Below the pieces are notes generated by a model. The model saw only the letters and a program-made list of their open reading frames with translations, ran no database searches and was not told where the DNA came from. A stretch of 54,223 nt of DNA, taken from contig CATLPG010000017.1 in assembly GCA_950054195.1 (NCBI GenBank), positions 1 through 54,223 of the forward strand. Direction: 5' to 3'. Position numbers and translations under genes: made by a program. This document shows, one piece after another, positions 8,264 through 49,384 of the stretch (positions within the stretch are counted from its first letter, which is position 1; each line of letters starts with the position of its first letter). The DNA comes from an uncultured Saccharospirillaceae bacterium. Its GTDB lineage: Bacteria; Bacteroidota; Bacteroidia; Flavobacteriales_D; CAJJDF01.

Positions 8264-9733
8264 ATGGCTAAAAAAGAAAAAATAATTGATTTTAATTCTG
8301 GTTGGGATTTAGCTCCTGCTCCAGAAAGCACAAGTCACATTCGTTTAAAAAAGAAGTATGATTTGTATATCGGTGGAAAATGGGTTAAACCATCTTCTGG
8401 AAAGTATTTTGATACGATTAACCCAGCTACCGAAGAAAAAATTGCTGAAGTTGCTGAAGCTGATGCAAAAGACATCGATAAAGCGGTGAAAGCTGCTAAA
8501 AAAGCATACGATGAAGTATGGTCGAAGCTTTCTGGAAAAGAAAGAGGAAAATACATTTACCGTATTGCTCGAATTATGCAAGAAAGAGCAAGAGAGCTTG
8601 CTGTTATAGAAAGTATTGATGGTGGTAAACCAATTAGAGAATCAAGAGATATTGATGTTCCTTTAGCTGCAAATCACTTCTTTTACTATGCGGGTTGGGC
8701 AGATAAACTAGAATATGCTTTCCCAAATAGAAAAGTTAAACCTTATGGTGTTGCAGGTCAAATAACTCCTTGGAACTTTCCTTTACTGATGGTTGCTTGG
8801 AAAATAGCTCCTGCTTTAGCCTGTGGAAACACAGTAGTTTTAAAACCTGCTGAAACAACTCCTTTAACTGCAATTAAACTTGCAGAAATTTGTGAGCAAG
8901 CAGGCTTACCAGCGGGTGTAGTAAATATTGTTACGGGGGCTGGTTCAACTGGTGCTGAAATTGTAAACCATAAGAATGTTGATAAAGTTGCTTTTACTGG
9001 TTCTACTGGTGTTGGAAAAATTATTCAACGTGCAATTGCTGGTACAGGTAAAAAAGCTACACTAGAATTAGGTGGTAAAGCTGCAAACATCATTTTTGAA
9101 GATGCCCCGTTAGACCAAGCGGTAGAAGGTGTAATTAATGGAATTTTCTTTAACCAAGGACATGTGTGTTGTGCTGGTTCTAGGTTATTTATCCAAGAGT
9201 CTGTTTATGATAAAGTAATGCGTAAACTAAAAGACCGTATGGAAAGCTTAGTAGTTGGTGACCCACTAGATAAGAATACAGATATAGGTGCAATTAACTC
9301 CAAAGAGCAATTAAACACCATCAATAAATACCTTAAAATTGGTAAGGAAGAAGGAGCTGATATTTATCAACCTTCTTGTAATATTCCTAAAAAAGGATAC
9401 TGGTGTAAGCCAACCTTGTTTTACAACTTAGCGCAATCAAGCAAAATCACACAAGAAGAAATTTTTGGACCTGTTTTAGCGATTCAAACATTTAGAACGG
9501 TATCAGAAGTTATTGCAAAAGCAAACAATACTCCTTATGGTTTATCTGCTGGTGTTTGGACAGATAAAGGATCGAAGATATTTAACATGACATCTCAAAT
9601 GAGAGCTGGAGTTGTTTGGGCAAATACCTACAACAAATTTGATCCTGCATCTCCGTTTGGAGGATATAAAGAAAGTGGGTTTGGACGTGAAGGAGGGTTA
9701 CATGGATTATCAGCTTATTTAAAATTTGATTAG
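8264..9733 (+). CDS. Aldehyde dehydrogenase, full length (ALDH16-type catalytic half)
   Basis: 489-residue NAD(P)-dependent aldehyde dehydrogenase. The Rossmann and catalytic signatures are complete: TPWNFPLLMVAWK (168-180), GNTVVLKPAE, FTGSTGVGK, LELGGKAANII with general base Glu268, and FNQGHVCCAGSR with nucleophile Cys302 and neighbour Cys303. EIFGPVL and the oligomerisation end are also present. It has a roughly 30-residue N-terminal extension before the DLYIGGKW block. It sits two genes after deoC and directly before a truncated ALDH-like gene. It may oxidise acetaldehyde from the DeoC reaction (inference from context). The 489 + 293 residue pair matches the two-part layout of single-chain ALDH16 proteins. 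Confidence 0.92.
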   Translation: MAKKEKIIDFNSGWDLAPAPESTSHIRLKKKYDLYIGGKWVKPSSGKYFDTINPATEEKIAEVAEADAKDIDKAVKAAKKAYDEVWSKLSGKERGKYIYRIARIMQERARELAVIESIDGGKPIRESRDIDVPLAANHFFYYAGWADKLEYAFPNRKVKPYGVAGQITPWNFPLLMVAWKIAPALACGNTVVLKPAETTPLTAIKLAEICEQAGLPAGVVNIVTGAGSTGAEIVNHKNVDKVAFTGSTGVGKIIQRAIAGTGKKATLELGGKAANIIFEDAPLDQAVEGVINGIFFNQGHVCCAGSRLFIQESVYDKVMRKLKDRMESLVVGDPLDKNTDIGAINSKEQLNTINKYLKIGKEEGADIYQPSCNIPKKGYWCKPTLFYNLAQSSKITQEEIFGPVLAIQTFRTVSEVIAKANNTPYGLSAGVWTDKGSKIFNMTSQMRAGVVWANTYNKFDPASPFGGYKESGFGREGGLHGLSAYLKFD

Positions 9734-37628: not shown

Positions 37629-38561
37629 ATGAATACCATCATTTTACAAGCAAGTCAATTACCATTTAACCTACCCTTGGTTATTGGTGTTATCTTATTA
37701 CTAGTTCTAATTATCATGTCGATAGTTATAGTACCAGAACAATCAGCAAAAGTTATTCAGCGACTTGGTAAATACAAAAGAGTTGCTCACTCAGGATTGA
37801 GTTTTAAAATTCCAATTATCGATGGAGTTGCTGGTACGGTTAATCACCGTGTACAACAATTAGATGTACATGTAGAAACTAAAACAAGCGATAACGTGTT
37901 CGTTAACATGCAAGCTTCGGTACAGTACAAAGTAATTAAAAGCAAAACCAGAGCAGCATTTTATGAACTTGATGATCCTGCAAGACAAATTTCTTCGTTC
38001 ATTTTTGATGTAATCCGTGCAGAAGTTCCAAAACTAGAACTTGATGATGTGTTTGCTAAAAAAGACGATATTGCTATTGCAGTAAACGAAAGCTTATCCA
38101 ACTCTATGGATGATTATGGGTTTGAAATTATTAAAACCTTAATTACTGATATAGATCCAGACGCACACGTAAAAGCATCTATGAATAGAATTAATGCGGC
38201 TAAGCGAGATAAATATGCTGCACTTGAAGAAGCGGAAGCTAAAAAAATCCAAATTGTTAAAGAAGCAGAAGCGGATGCAGAAAGCAAGCGTTTACAAGGA
38301 GAAGGTATTGCTAAGCAACGTATAGAAATTGTTAGAGGATTTAAAGAATCTGTAGAAGATTTCAAAGACTCTCTACAAGATATCGACTCGGCAGAAGTGA
38401 TGCAATTTGTATTGCTTACACAATATTTTGATACCCTAAACAACATTGGAACAAAAGAAGGAAACAACACCATTATGGTTCCTCACTCTCCAAGTGGCAT
38501 GAAGGATTTTCAACAACAAATTATTGATGGAACCTTTATAGGAAGAAAGCTGGGTGAGTAG
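37629..38561 (+). CDS. Stomatin/QmcA-like SPFH protein
   Basis: 310 residues of the stomatin-prohibitin branch. One N-terminal helix (LVIGVILLLVLIIMSIVIV, about 19-37), then the SPFH domain: VPEQSAKVIQRLGKYKRVAHSGLSFKIPIIDG, VNMQASVQYKVI and VIRAEVPKLELDDVFAKKD. The coiled end DKYAALEEAEAKKIQIVKEAEADAESKRLQGEGIAKQR is typical of stomatin/QmcA. It is the third gene of the NfeD-flotillin-stomatin operon. Such proteins commonly associate with membrane proteases. Its target here is unknown. Confidence 0.92.
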   Translation: MNTIILQASQLPFNLPLVIGVILLLVLIIMSIVIVPEQSAKVIQRLGKYKRVAHSGLSFKIPIIDGVAGTVNHRVQQLDVHVETKTSDNVFVNMQASVQYKVIKSKTRAAFYELDDPARQISSFIFDVIRAEVPKLELDDVFAKKDDIAIAVNESLSNSMDDYGFEIIKTLITDIDPDAHVKASMNRINAAKRDKYAALEEAEAKKIQIVKEAEADAESKRLQGEGIAKQRIEIVRGFKESVEDFKDSLQDIDSAEVMQFVLLTQYFDTLNNIGTKEGNNTIMVPHSPSGMKDFQQQIIDGTFIGRKLGE

Positions 38562-38650
38562 GGTTAGCTAATTATTTAACTCTGTCAAAATAGTGTGTTT
38601 ATTCGCATGTTAGGGTGAATGATGGTAAATCAAATAAAAGAAATCAACCT

Positions 38651-39523
38651 ATGTTAAAAATTAACCCAGTTTTATATATTACATTATTGTTTATAGTTAT
38701 GGCTTGCTCTACTGATAAACCAAGTTGCAAAACTGGTAACTGCGAAAACGGTTATGGAGTCAAGATATATCCAGACGGTGGTTTTGATAAAGGATATTGG
38801 AAAAACGGAAAACTTGATGGGTATGGGGAACAATTGTTTGGTAAAGATTCAAAGTTTGCTAGAGATACTTATAAGGGTGAATTTAAGAATAGTAAATATC
38901 ATGGATACGGTGTATACATTGATATTAGTGAAGGTAATACTTACGAAGGAGAATGGAAGAATGGGGCGCCAATTGGAGATGAAATATTAAACCATGATGT
39001 TGCACATAAGAAAGCAACTATTAAGCCAAAATTAGAATGGGAGTCTTTTGTTAATCATGAGCTTTCATTCCAAGCTAAGTTTCCCAAGTTAATCGAAGCT
39101 AAGATTGAGGTTAGTGAAACATTACAAGAAGACACAGAGTATGGGGATATTAAATTAACATCATATAAATTAAACTGTCAAAAAACGGAACACTTGAATA
39201 TGGGATATTCTCTATCAATATTAGATATTGGAAAGGATAATTTTAAAAATTATGATGACCATGATTGGAAAGTGTTTTTTAATAAAACTGCATCAAGCAT
39301 TCAAGAAATGACTGGTTTTAAACCCTATGCCAAACTAGTAATTGACACTGACAAATTTCGAGGCAGAAAAATCTTTTTTAAAAGTGAAGATCATAAACTT
39401 CGCCTATTATCTAAAGTAATGGTTAGAGAGGGCTATGAATATAGAATGAATGTTGTAGTTCTTGAGGGAAATCATTTAAACCCATATATCAATATGTTTT
39501 TTGATTCTTTCAGTTTTAAGTAA
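38651..39523 (+). CDS. MORN-repeat lipoprotein
   Basis: 290 residues from the ATG at 38651; an in-frame start at 38615 would add a hydrophilic leader before the signal peptide. Lipoprotein signal (PVLYITLLFIVMAC, Cys16). Residues about 25-112 are MORN-type repeats: CENGYGVKIYPDGGFDKGYWKNGKLDGYGEQLF, TYKGEFKNSKYHGYGVYI and NTYEGEWKNG. The C-terminal 170 residues form an unrecognised alpha/beta domain (SFVNHELSFQAKFP and KLVIDTDKFRGRKIFFKSEDH). It is bracketed by a perfect 10-bp inverted repeat (38609-38618 and 39531-39540), unlike its neighbours, so it may be an acquired unit. Function unknown. Confidence 0.8.
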   Translation: MLKINPVLYITLLFIVMACSTDKPSCKTGNCENGYGVKIYPDGGFDKGYWKNGKLDGYGEQLFGKDSKFARDTYKGEFKNSKYHGYGVYIDISEGNTYEGEWKNGAPIGDEILNHDVAHKKATIKPKLEWESFVNHELSFQAKFPKLIEAKIEVSETLQEDTEYGDIKLTSYKLNCQKTEHLNMGYSLSILDIGKDNFKNYDDHDWKVFFNKTASSIQEMTGFKPYAKLVIDTDKFRGRKIFFKSEDHKLRLLSKVMVREGYEYRMNVVVLEGNHLNPYINMFFDSFSFK

Positions 39524-39718
39524 ACAAAACTCACCCTAACAGTTTGTAAATACCATTTTGTCGCCTAGCATGAGTATTTGAATCAAACAAGCCAATCAAT
39601 TAACCCGCATTCTGTTGCTTATTACAAATTAACTTCGTCTTAATCAACTAGCAAAAAACGGTCTTTAAGTGGAGTTATCTCCAATTATCCCAAACGATCA
39701 TCTATCTTTACCCTCCCA

Positions 39719-39757
39719 AAAAGCCTTAAGCAACCATGCCCATTCGTATAGTTCCTG
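39719..39757 (+). repeat. Partial duplication of the C1 peptidase gene 5' end, copy 1
   Basis: The 37-base stretch from aaaagcc to gttcc is identical to 42800-42836. The similarity continues less precisely both upstream, through a -7-like box TATCTTTA at 39703-39710, and downstream. It contains the same start codon and first seven codons (MPIRIVP). Confidence 0.8.
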
Positions 39758-39810
39758 ATAAAAAACAAAAGCACTCAATAAACAACACAACAACATCAAC
39801 AAGTAACTAA
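39736..39810 (+). pseudogene. Truncated 24-codon copy of the C1 peptidase N-terminus, or leader ORF
   Basis: A small open frame, MPIRIVPDKKQKHSINN... (24 residues), starting like the C1 peptidase at 42817 (MPIRIVPDKNKKSSN) and then diverging. Its TAA directly abuts the ATG of the Crp-like gene (39808-39811). It is either a remnant of a duplicated protease gene or a leader peptide coupled to crp translation. There is no evidence that it is made. Confidence 0.55.
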
Positions 39811-40365
39811 ATGAAGGCATTTCTTTCCAGTTTTATAGATTTTACGGATCAAGAATATGAGTCGTTTATAGCTATCGCTAAGCTAAAGGAGTTCAAAAAA
39901 AATGAATACCTGCTTCGTGCTGGAAGCCCCGTGAAAAAGCTGTTTTTTGTAAACTATGGTTTCATGCGTGGATACAGAATCCAAGAAGGTATGGATATTA
40001 CCCATCACTTTTATTTAAGCAACTGGTTGGCTACCGATTATGAAAGTTACCTTAGTGGAAATCCTGGAGAATTATATATAAAAGCTCTAATTGATACTTC
40101 TGTCTATGAGTTCGATTATGATAGCTTACACGCATTCTTTAAAACAAACCAAAAATTCGAAAAAATTCGTACAATACAAGCAGAAGACGCTTACCTACGA
40201 ATGGTTAAAAGACTTAAAAACTTCCAGTATATGGAATTAAAAGATCGTTACCTAGCTCTAGTAAATGAAGATCCAGGGCTATTTAATCTTGTTCCACAAA
40301 GATACATTGCTTCTTATTTGGGAGTTACTCCTCAAAGCTTAAGCAGAATCAAAAAAGAATTATAG
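39811..40365 (+). CDS. Crp/Fnr-family transcriptional regulator
   Basis: 184 residues with an N-terminal cNMP-binding-like beta roll (FSSFIDFTDQEYESFIAIAKLKEFKKNEYLLRAGSPVKKLFFVNYGFMRGYR) and a short C-terminal HTH (LFNLVPQRYIASYLGVTPQSLSRIKKEL), the common Bacteroidota layout. No Cys-based Fe-S site is visible, and the RxS-type cAMP motif is absent, so the effector is unknown. Its ATG follows immediately after a 24-codon truncated protease fragment. The downstream hydrolase gene starts 100 bp later with its own TAGTTTTG box, so it is a possible target (inference). Confidence 0.9.
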   Translation: MKAFLSSFIDFTDQEYESFIAIAKLKEFKKNEYLLRAGSPVKKLFFVNYGFMRGYRIQEGMDITHHFYLSNWLATDYESYLSGNPGELYIKALIDTSVYEFDYDSLHAFFKTNQKFEKIRTIQAEDAYLRMVKRLKNFQYMELKDRYLALVNEDPGLFNLVPQRYIASYLGVTPQSLSRIKKEL

Positions 40366-42799: not shown

Positions 42800-42838
42800 A
42801 AAAGCCTTAAGCAACCATGCCCATTCGTATAGTTCCAG
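42800..42838 (+). repeat. Partial duplication of the C1 peptidase gene 5' end, copy 2 (intact gene)
   Basis: The intact copy of the stretch also found at 39719-39757. It starts near the predicted transcription start and runs into the first codons of the peptidase gene. Confidence 0.8.
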
Positions 42839-44361
42839 ATAAAAACAAAAAATCAAGCAATCGTAACAGTCCGCCTAGAAGAAACTCTAATCAAGGAGGA
42901 GGAAATTTAGCTAGTACACTGCTTCCTGTTGTTATGAGCTTATTTTCTAAAAAGCCTAAACTCGCTATTGCGATAGTTATCGCTGGAATAATTATTTTCA
43001 TAGTCGTTGGAAAAGGCTGTGGAGAAGGTGCTGGAATTACAAGTGCTTTTGCAACTGGTGGAAAATTCGATCTTGAAAAATACGATGCTACCGAAGTATT
43101 TGAACCTTTAGCGGATAATAGAAAAAATCCCCTGCCAGAACGATATTCACTTCTAAAATATGCTCCTCGTAGATTAAACCAAGGACAACAAGGTTCGTGT
43201 GTGGGTTGGGCAACATCCTATGCTGCACGCACAATTTTACATGCTCGTATGACAGGCAAAGATCCTAACGAAGTAATTTTTAGTCCGTCTTTTGTGTATA
43301 ACCAAATTGCTTTAGAAAATTGCCAAGGCACCTACCTAAGTGAAGCTATGCAGACCTTAGAAACAGTTGGTGACCTTCCGTTTACACAATTTGCTTACGA
43401 TGAATATTCTTGCGGACGAACACCTAATAACGATGAAAAAAGAGCAGCTAATCAGTTTAAAATAAAAGGATATAATCGCTTAACTGTTAGTGGTAACAAG
43501 TACCAGCCCGATATGCTTGCAATAAAACAAAACATTGCACAAGGTGCTCCTGTTGTTATTGGTATGATGGTTGGAGGTTCGTTTACCAAGCAAATGCAAG
43601 GAAAAAAAGTTTGGTTTCCAACCCAAGCAGATTATAACCAACGTAATTTTGGCGGACATGCCATGTGTGTGATTGGCTATGATGATTACTTAGAAGGTGG
43701 AGCTTTTCAAATCATGAATAGCTGGGGGCCTGCCTGGGGAGAAAATGGTGTTGCTTGGGTTAGGTACAAAGATTTTGACTATTTCAACAAAGAAGCTTTT
43801 GGTTTATACCCAATGGGTAGTGCTAACCAAAAAAACGAAACAAAACTAAACATGAAGTTTGGTATTGTAGATAACAAATCGGGTAAAAACATACCTTTTG
43901 TAAAAAGCAAAGGCATTTTATTTAAAACAGAAAAACCAATAAAAAAAGGCACAACATTTAAAATAGAATCCACAAACTCTATTCCTTGTTACACCTACGT
44001 ATTTAGTCAGCAAACAAATGGTTCAAGCGAAGTTCTATTCCCTTACACTCAAAAACATTCCCCTTACTGCGGAATTACAGGAACGAGATTATTCCCAAAA
44101 GATCATTCGCTCGAAGCTGACGATATTGGCACAAAAGACTTTATGGCTGTTGTAGTAACCAAAGAACCCATCGATTACATAAAATTAAACGAACAATTTA
44201 GCCAAGCTTCTGGAAGTTCCTATGCCGAAAAAATTGAACGTGTTTTAAAGTCAGAAATGATAAAAGATATTAGTTTAAGCACATCAAGTACAATCAACAT
44301 TTCTTGCGATACAAAAGGAAAAAATGCATTAGCAGTAGTGTTAGAAATCGATAAATATTAA
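42817..44361 (+). CDS. Membrane-anchored papain-like (C1) peptidase with DUF4384-like tail
   Basis: 514 residues. A basic, Asn/Pro-rich cytoplasmic start (about 1-45), one TM helix (LAIAIVIAGIIIFIVVGKG, 49-67), then a papain-like domain with Cys128 in NQGQQGSCVGWATSYAA, His281 in GGHAMCVIGYDDY and Asn301 in IMNSWGPAWGENG, a full catalytic triad. The C-terminal 160 residues carry a DUF4384-like region (KGTTFKIESTNSIPCYTYVFSQQTNGSSEVLFPY and DFMAVVVTKEPIDY). The topology places the protease in the periplasm. It is 5 bp before a pabB-like gene, but without a functional tie. Confidence 0.9.
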   Translation: MPIRIVPDKNKKSSNRNSPPRRNSNQGGGNLASTLLPVVMSLFSKKPKLAIAIVIAGIIIFIVVGKGCGEGAGITSAFATGGKFDLEKYDATEVFEPLADNRKNPLPERYSLLKYAPRRLNQGQQGSCVGWATSYAARTILHARMTGKDPNEVIFSPSFVYNQIALENCQGTYLSEAMQTLETVGDLPFTQFAYDEYSCGRTPNNDEKRAANQFKIKGYNRLTVSGNKYQPDMLAIKQNIAQGAPVVIGMMVGGSFTKQMQGKKVWFPTQADYNQRNFGGHAMCVIGYDDYLEGGAFQIMNSWGPAWGENGVAWVRYKDFDYFNKEAFGLYPMGSANQKNETKLNMKFGIVDNKSGKNIPFVKSKGILFKTEKPIKKGTTFKIESTNSIPCYTYVFSQQTNGSSEVLFPYTQKHSPYCGITGTRLFPKDHSLEADDIGTKDFMAVVVTKEPIDYIKLNEQFSQASGSSYAEKIERVLKSEMIKDISLSTSSTINISCDTKGKNALAVVLEIDKY

Positions 44362-48118: not shown

Positions 48119-49384
48119 ATGCACAAACTACTCGCTTTAAGCTTCATTTTATTCGTCAACACAGTCGTATTTTCTCAAAAAGACTATGGAAAACAGCTAT
48201 TAGACTCCCTAGCTTCTGATCAATTTTATGGAAGAGGTTACGTGAAAAACGGAGATAAAATAGCCGCCAATTTTATCGTTAAAGAATTTAAAAAGCTAGA
48301 TGCTCAACCTATTGGTAGCAGTTTTTTTCAAAACTATATCCTTCCTGTTAATACCTTTCCTAATGATGTTGAAGTTATCATCAACAATAAAAAACTTAAA
48401 ACAGGTGAAGATTTTATTATAAGTCCATACTCAGGCTCTGCTAAAGGAACCTACAAACTCGAACTCATTGATGAAAAACAAGTAACAAATATCATCAATA
48501 CCTTTGACCCTGAAAACAACTTAGTTGAAAAAGACATTGCTTATCTCGTTAACTTTGAAAAAGTAACCGACCGAAAAGATCGATCCAAACAAGAATACCT
48601 AAAACAATTTCTTGCACAGCTTGCTCCAGTTATCGTTCCAGATGATGAAAAATTCACATGGTCTGTTGCTCGTGAAGCATTACCCAACCCTATAATTCAG
48701 GTGCACTCATCCTTTCTTAAAGAAACTAAAACCATCACACTCAATATTCAAAACAAACTTGTATCATCCTATCAAACGCAAAATGCAATAGGTATAATTC
48801 CTGCAAAAAGAAAGTGTAAAAGAGATAAATACATCTTCTTTACGGCTCATTACGACCACTTAGGTATGATGGGAGAAAATGCCACATTTAATGGTGCAAA
48901 TGATAACGCTAGTGGAACGGCTCTTATGCTCTCTTTAATGAAACATTATAGCCAAAAAAAACCAGAATACACCATGGTGTTTATCGCTTTTGGTGCAGAA
49001 GAAGCTGGTCTGGTAGGCTCTAAATACTTTGTAGAACATCCTTTAGTTCCTTTAGACAAAATAAAGTTTTTAGTAAATGTAGATTTAATGGGCACAGGCG
49101 AAAATGGAGTAACGGTAGTAAATGCAACCGAACACGAAAAAGAGTTCGAATGGCTTAAAAAAATAAATAAGAAAAAAAACTTATTAAAAACAGTAAACCC
49201 AAGAGGAAAAGCAGCGAATAGCGATCATTATTGGTTCGAAGAAAGTGGAGTTCCTTCGTTTTTTATTTACGCCATGGGAGAACCCAGCCACTATCACGAC
49301 ATCAACGATCGACCAGAAACTCTTCCACTAACTGAGTTTGACGATCTTCAAGAGCTCATTATCCGATTTGTAAAGAAGTTTTAG
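48119..49384 (+). CDS. Secreted M28-family peptidase
   Basis: 421 residues from the ATG at 48119; the frame opens from a TTG at 48059, but the signal peptide (LLALSFILFVNTVVFSQ) begins just after this Met. The M28 zinc peptidase core is at the C-terminal half: FTAHYDHLGMMG, GANDNASGTALM, AFGAEEAGLVGS, VNVDLMG and PSHYHDIND, supplying His, Asp, Glu-Glu, Asp and His zinc/catalytic residues. The N-terminal 200 residues carry an inserted domain like PA-containing aminopeptidases. It probably cuts peptides in the periplasm or outside the cell. It is monocistronic. Confidence 0.92.
   Translation: MHKLLALSFILFVNTVVFSQKDYGKQLLDSLASDQFYGRGYVKNGDKIAANFIVKEFKKLDAQPIGSSFFQNYILPVNTFPNDVEVIINNKKLKTGEDFIISPYSGSAKGTYKLELIDEKQVTNIINTFDPENNLVEKDIAYLVNFEKVTDRKDRSKQEYLKQFLAQLAPVIVPDDEKFTWSVAREALPNPIIQVHSSFLKETKTITLNIQNKLVSSYQTQNAIGIIPAKRKCKRDKYIFFTAHYDHLGMMGENATFNGANDNASGTALMLSLMKHYSQKKPEYTMVFIAFGAEEAGLVGSKYFVEHPLVPLDKIKFLVNVDLMGTGENGVTVVNATEHEKEFEWLKKINKKKNLLKTVNPRGKAANSDHYWFEESGVPSFFIYAMGEPSHYHDINDRPETLPLTEFDDLQELIIRFVKKF

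Follow-up and report, generated by a model that had tools for sequence, protein, structure and literature searches.

Chromosomal integrons are built around a tyrosine recombinase that heads an array and whose gene adjoins the insertion site, behind which single-gene cassettes with a GTTR core follow head to tail in one direction; CALIN are single or clustered attC sites that lack an integrase. In these arrays the R''/R' and L''/L' arms of each attC pair in a covarying hairpin, and introns occur at attC, which class IIC introns prefer. The ends of canonical integron cassettes match over about 7 nt. The IntI-specific domain is presented as defining, and as necessary for integron recombination, in a passage of Ghaly et al. 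(PMC9668308), and a section of Smyshlyaev et al. (PMC8138268) holds this insertion to be essential for integrons to function, with conservation that is incomplete in an integron-like subgroup. For Bacteroidetes, the part of the IntegronFinder 2.0 survey dealing with this phylum names one complete integron, in Salinibacter ruber M1 (Neron et al., PMC9024848), and a list within PMC8618304 gives integrons for Bacteroidota.

Here we describe a locus within a stretch of 54,223 nt from an uncultured bacterium (contig CATLPG010000017.1; hereafter the window) that shares much of this design. Positions 38609-39673 are best read as a single gene cassette belonging to an integron-like system common to many Bacteroidota, a reading to which we give a probability of roughly 0.87 on the strength of sequence comparison. 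Its anatomy consists of an attI-like flank, a GTTR N6 ... N6' YAAC pair around the gene and an attC-type hairpin behind it, and the same anatomy is found beside a Xer-like recombinase on another contig of this genome (C112) and in other Bacteroidota. A preliminary description of the window had suggested a lone integron-type cassette, and this gains support from the recombinase-derived flank, the GTTR core, the cassette-specific ends and the attC-type hairpin, each of which has counterparts at other loci. A literature search for such a system returned no paper; preprints and most subscription journals lay outside its scope, and a report may be in print.

The proposed window cassette and its ends

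The cassette gene (38651-39523, forward strand) encodes a 290-aa MORN lipoprotein-like protein, in which a PF02493 match (E 8e-11) bears out the MORN identity first assigned by inspection; the lipobox was recognised by eye. We prefer ATG 38651 over GTG 38615 as the start, because the latter falls within the repeat. The longer frame gave no NCBIfam match, and a defence-model scan gave no PADLOC match for the protein.

The left end R', GTTAGGGTGA (38609-38618, forward strand), comprises the core GTTA and six cassette-specific bases, and the right end R'', TCACCCTAAC (39531-39540, forward strand), is its exact reverse complement. The 10-bp inverted pair was thus described correctly at the outset, with exact coordinates and perfect inversion; the right arm, which had been placed directly behind the stop, is present, but a gap of 7 nt separates it from the stop codon ending at 39523. 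The 10-mer has two copies in the entire 3.27-Mb genome, both at this locus. The preliminary description had counted a pair found nowhere else, together with a gene syntenic in all relatives, against a mobile cassette. The first of these does hold; yet a unique pair is exactly what the system predicts, because every cassette has its own pair.

By itself, the inverted pair is weak evidence, because pairs of its type are found at counts near the simulated background: at a spacing of 150-2500 nt, 403 kb of this genome hold three GTTAG-type 10-bp pairs (one of them at the C4 locus described below), against 0-1 in five simulated sets, and 21 GTTA-type pairs, against 8-19 simulated. A random pair flanking an ordinary accessory gene would find some backing in these rates, with about one GTTAG-type pair per 400 kb and about 8-19 of the GTTA type arising by chance. 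Such an accident would leave unexplained the homologous flanks of C4 with their different perfect pair, the recombinase-derived left flank and the matching ends at 42 of 50 loci elsewhere, and we regard it as highly improbable. The cassette reading is preferred, and the window pair gains its meaning because it is part of a wider system seen at C4, at C112 and in other Bacteroidota.

Behind the gene lies an attC-type imperfect hairpin (39541-39673, forward strand), in which TAAATACCATTTT (39547-39559) pairs with AAAACGGTCTTTA (39655-39667) at 11 positions out of 13, with GTTA at 39674 as the closing element. The hairpin initially seen at 39541-39585 exists but is merely a portion of this larger structure. 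Likewise, no closing GTTRRRY had been noticed, whereas a GTT core does occur at 39674; the earlier statement stands insofar as GTTATCT fits GTTRRRY only through GTTA. This closing core, GTTATCTCCA (39674-39683, forward strand), has no partner in the window, and no second cassette was found behind 39674.

Among 6822 random YAAC sites of this genome, 132 have a pairing score at least as high as that of the window site, and 10 one at least as high as that of the C4 site. A covariance model built from 56 attC sites of other species (see below) gave no match in the window with default filters; with filters off, a full-length match (39537-39677; 7.4 bits, E 1.4) ranked fifth of 35 matches in 7 kb, and the window hairpin alone is not significant under this model. 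Folding of the right flank as an attC, as had been proposed, shows arms that pair, but the folding energy alone is unremarkable at both loci (z of -2.13 for the bottom and -1.14 for the top strand of the window, -0.73 for C4). Rfam at gathering scores detected nothing in the window or C112. It is rather the homology to C4, the attI-like flank and the exact ends that carry the case for the window copy as a putative cassette.

attI-like modules and further putative cassettes in the same genome

The left flank (38562-38608, forward strand) begins directly behind the stop codon of a Band_7 gene and is homologous to the final codons of the recombinase on C112 together with the palindrome that follows them, except that the left palindrome arm is missing. 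Local alignment of 38562-38613 to this gene end and its palindrome scored 48, reached by none of 2000 shuffles and none of 1700 genome windows; the left flank of C4 scored 59.5 against the same recombinase tail and palindrome. The window flank appears, from this alignment, to derive from the tail of a recombinase gene and its palindrome. On C112 the complete order is a 378-aa tyrosine recombinase, the palindrome CGAATAAACACCATAGTGTTTATTCG with TATGTTACCCAAC, a 193-aa gene and GTTGGGTAAT, which is the expected cassette-end partner with one mismatch; a group II intron reverse transcriptase follows on the opposite strand.

A BLAST search of 38480-39830 against the genome returned C4:35421-35524, 82% identical to the stretch directly behind the MORN gene (39536-39639). 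On C4 an unrelated 244-codon frame lies between GTTAGCATAT and ATATGCTAAC, a perfect 10-bp pair, and the two loci have a common left neighbour, TTCGCATGTTAG, and a common right neighbour, CTAACAGTTTGTAAATACCATTTTGTCG. The pair thus reads GTTAGGGTGA in the window, GTTAGCATAT on C4 and, with one mismatch, GTTACCCAAC on C112. Because the flanks are shared while the pair changes from gene to gene, this is the pattern of integron cassettes, unlike the fixed ends of transposons. A transposon- or MITE-like repeat carrying a gene by accident would account for the terminal inverted repeats and the repeated right flank; however, the same terminal repeat is not found in every copy, the elements elsewhere form head-to-tail arrays with one hairpin per gene, and the array heads carry a recombinase and no transposase. 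We consider such an origin hardly credible compared with an integron-like cassette.

Allowing up to two mismatches, the palindrome pattern occurs at seven places in the genome, against none for the control pattern. The copies at C112, C4, C7, C44 and C62 are followed by a GTT start, the copy at C9 is not, and a copy at window position 48966 seems, by eye, to lie within a coding frame. The cassette on C7 holds a 563-codon frame, with ends that agree at 9 of 10 positions and no exact partner found, and behind it lies a weak attC remnant (15.3 bits, E 1.9). The right ends of the C44 and C62 cassettes are unseen because both reach the contig end. The lone cassettes on C7 and C62, which stand behind attI-like palindromes, have frames that by eye resemble OLD-type ATPases.

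The window locus itself lacks a recombinase gene, and attI-like modules of this kind could reflect either post-insertion loss of the enzyme gene or copying of the module. The window copy would be a lone cassette beside a damaged attI, and it could be mobilised only by the C112 enzyme acting in trans, because a local recombinase is absent and the attI is damaged. The likely enzyme of the system in this genome is indeed the Xer-like recombinase on C112, a role resting on its position.

Arrays in other Bacteroidota and their recombinases

A scan of genome contigs for relatives of the C112 recombinase found 87 loci, of which 80 were kept, mostly Bacteroidota by title; best-segment identities range from 32 to 67%, with three Chloroflexi at 32-33%. 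As at C112, a palindrome and GTTR stand behind the recombinase stop at many loci, within about 200 nt, such that the tyrosine recombinase gene adjoins the insertion site. Palindrome arms of at least 8 nt occur within 95 nt of the stop at 43 of the 69 loci that remained once 11 truncated or distant ones were set aside from the 80, whereas shuffling produced such arms in 23 of 1380 trials. Further, 39 of 44 palindromes are preceded by the element TAnnTT(T/A)G at a distance of at most 60 nt, compared with 84 of 1600 random windows from the same loci, and in 33 of the 39 the distance is 10-20 nt; we take this element to resemble the -7 promoter element of Bacteroidota.

Matching cassette ends were sought at loci with at least 700 nt downstream, where the bases following a GTTR within 200 nt had to have an exact partner. 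Of the 50 such loci, 42 had them, compared with 8 of 392 upstream control windows, and the exact partner is 10 nt long at 30 loci and 9 nt at 12. Three of the eight loci without matching ends belong to the distant Chloroflexi relatives. An antisense downstream control gave 23 of 236, above the upstream rate of 8/392, and is not clean because real cassette ends occur on that strand too. Matches at three loci look like chance: L126 (attC score 9.4), L212 (11.1) and L227 (10.4).

Chaining from these ends yielded 92 cassettes with scored attC sites at 36 of the 42 loci, arranged in one-way arrays of single-gene cassettes; the window has one cassette. The longest array, in Winogradskyella eckloniae, holds nine, with the ninth site under the score limit. 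An open reading frame of at least 40 codons is present in 81 of the 92, and 80 of these 81 point forward; the median distance between core and ATG is 31 nt, and that between stop and R'' is 18 nt. Among 40 loci, there are eight pairs in which the 60 nt of attI region preceding GTT are 87-100% alike and the 60 nt following it 32-38% alike; this drop places the junction there, and we infer attC x attI junctions at GTT from the comparison of loci.

Several observations concern the arrays themselves. Four cassettes of different species (L127_3, L165_2, L165_3 and L190_2) are 80-89% alike over the first 170-198 columns, starting at core base 1; because only the first part is alike, they may be members of a common gene family instead of copies of a single cassette that has moved. 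In L166, cassettes one and four are equal in length and attC score, suggesting duplication inside one array. At L129, L132, L141, L155, L164, L177, L192 and others the contig ends 40-150 nt behind the recombinase gene, a pattern that repeated arrays would produce by breaking assemblies.

The attC ends (YAAC/GTTR) and folding inner arms recur across the arrays, with site lengths of 46-80 nt (12 sites), 112-121 nt (65) and 154-226 nt (15). In an alignment of the 56 middle-class sites (112-121 nt) scoring at least 20, 93.0% of stem cells are paired, and 151 cells have changes on both sides, against 41.3 after shuffling, with none of 500 shuffles reaching 151. The stem covariation is 0.527, compared with 0.125 shuffled and at most 0.094 slid. 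The number of pairs changed on both sides (11, against 9.0 shuffled, with 24 of 500 reaching 11) says little, and it is the remaining measures that carry the case for covariation.

The cassette content was scanned in 82 proteins, comprising those of the window, C4 and 80 cassette frames, with one reverse frame left out. Anti-phage models matched AbiLi (2), AriA (2), Old (2), GajA (2) and GajB (1), with overlaps possible, and the commonest Pfam family is DUF6090 (4 of 82). At L175 a group II intron (RF01999, 93.6 bits; 8610-8731) starts where the first attC breaks off. On C112, the group II intron reverse transcriptase (L082 175-1446) adjoins the R'' of the cassette and is possibly part of an attC-targeting intron in Bacteroidota. 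Both placements, the one adjoining R'' and the other within a first attC, are like those of group IIC-attC introns.

Concerning the recombinase, the initial statement that no integron integrase was seen has held up, as none in the genome passes the curated cut-off. The integron-integrase family search gave sub-cut-off matches to three tyrosine recombinases, one of them on C112, and TIGR02249 scored 194.7 bits against a cut-off of 265, such that an integron integrase with the IntI-specific domain was not found. Among 81 recombinases examined at the scanned loci, 13 were not measurable and the IntI-specific insert is absent from 68 of the 68 that were. The spacing from GLRxxE to HxLRH is 91-93 aa in 68 of the 81 proteins; it is 98 and 92 in the genome's own XerC/XerD-like proteins and 134, counted from an alignment, in IntI4. 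The C112 enzyme resembles XerA/XerD in passing NF040815 (229.2 against 220 bits), in its best PDB sequence matches, which are archaeal Xer proteins, and in its top Foldseek match by E-value, XerA 5hxy. Its AlphaFold model (mean pLDDT 82.6, pTM 0.53) has TM-scores of 0.57 to XerH, 0.55 to IntI4, which is fourth by E-value, and 0.43 to XerA. Unlike XerA/XerD, it carries about 105 extra N-terminal residues, predicted to form a small alpha/beta unit, and recombinases of this kind stand at the head of cassette arrays.

An ordinary integron cassette whose canonical IntI has been lost or is missing from the assembly could be invoked, given that the genome lies in 118 contigs and that integrons of Bacteroidota are on the list in PMC8618304. 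Against this, the genome is rated 100% complete and yet has no IntI that exceeds the cut-off, the attI flank corresponds to the end of a Xer-like recombinase gene, and the array recombinases elsewhere lack the insert in all 68 measurable cases (81 examined); this explanation is therefore unlikely. An integron-like system of Xer-like recombinases is preferred. By its anatomy it would be an integron, but one defining feature that was tested, the IntI-specific insert, is missing. It further differs from chromosomal integrons and CALIN in its palindromic attI behind the recombinase stop codon, in cassette ends that match over 9-10 nt and, in this genome, in the presence of several loci where an attI-like module accompanies a single cassette.

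In such a system, the substrate of the recombinase would be attC folded as a single strand, with cutting at the GTT core; a circular cassette would be inserted adjoining the attI palindrome, and its expression may be driven by the promoter element that precedes this palindrome. On balance we lean towards a widespread integron lineage in Bacteroidota whose recombinases are Xer-like and devoid of the IntI domain, and which is marked by 10-bp cassette-specific ends and a palindromic attI. Some genomes would then hold a dispersed integron of scattered attI modules and single cassettes, each with its own attI and promoter, overlooked by tools that demand the IntI domain. If true, arrays headed by a recombinase lacking this domain would mean that cassette recombination is possible in another way. 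This would bear on the apparent rarity of integrons in Bacteroidetes and open up a reservoir of mobile genes, among them several that match anti-phage models.

Relatives of the host and surroundings of the window cassette

Among 399 genomes from the order to which the window belongs, 158 match the recombinase at 1e-60, and 35 of these, its own included, do so at 1e-100 or better. Thirteen family loci were fetched, and among the ten with at least 700 nt downstream nine have matching ends by the rule given above, eight without the doubtful L212; L214, L216, L217, L218 and L224 are records already in the first scan, and the new positives are L213, L215, L222 and L223. Loci with more distant recombinases cannot be used as a negative control because five of seven were matched (L227 being doubtful). 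One of them, L229, chains six cassettes with the last site under the score limit. The recombinases of L228, L229, L230 and L231, at E of about 1e-69 to 1e-78 from the C112 enzyme, head cassettes with matching ends and attC-like hairpins, and from these sequences the system seems not confined to enzymes bearing the extra N-terminal part.

Searches with single elements were less productive. BLAST of the C4 attC against the 399 genomes found only the genome itself and one weak match in another (G007), and an exact attC-half pattern was not found in genome contigs. TAACNGTTTGTAAATACC as a lone motif, with up to two mismatches, occurred in 19 of 30 genomes, about the same rate as its reversed control, and two matches inspected (G004, G002) look like chance. 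A search with the MORN protein gave no match in G001, whereas 12 of 59 other genomes searched contain partial matches across its repeat part.

Genes left of 38558 are partly conserved in the fetched stretches of four family members (G001, G003, G004 and G005). The MORN gene is absent behind Band_7 in all four stretches, so that synteny of the gene in all relatives, the other observation expected to count against a mobile cassette, was not seen. None of the window proteins tested from the right side follow in these stretches, G002 has no Band_7 match, and CysC as a synteny anchor is absent in five of five relatives. The ABC-F gene beside C4 has different neighbourhoods in G004 and G002, and this comparison therefore yielded no clean empty site.

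To the right of the cassette, a 51-bp near-duplicate (96% identity) links 39719-39770 and 42800-42850. The 5' end of a cysteine-protease gene (42817) recurs by itself at 39719, in front of regulator and S41-peptidase genes, which look as if inserted at the start of the cysteine-protease gene.
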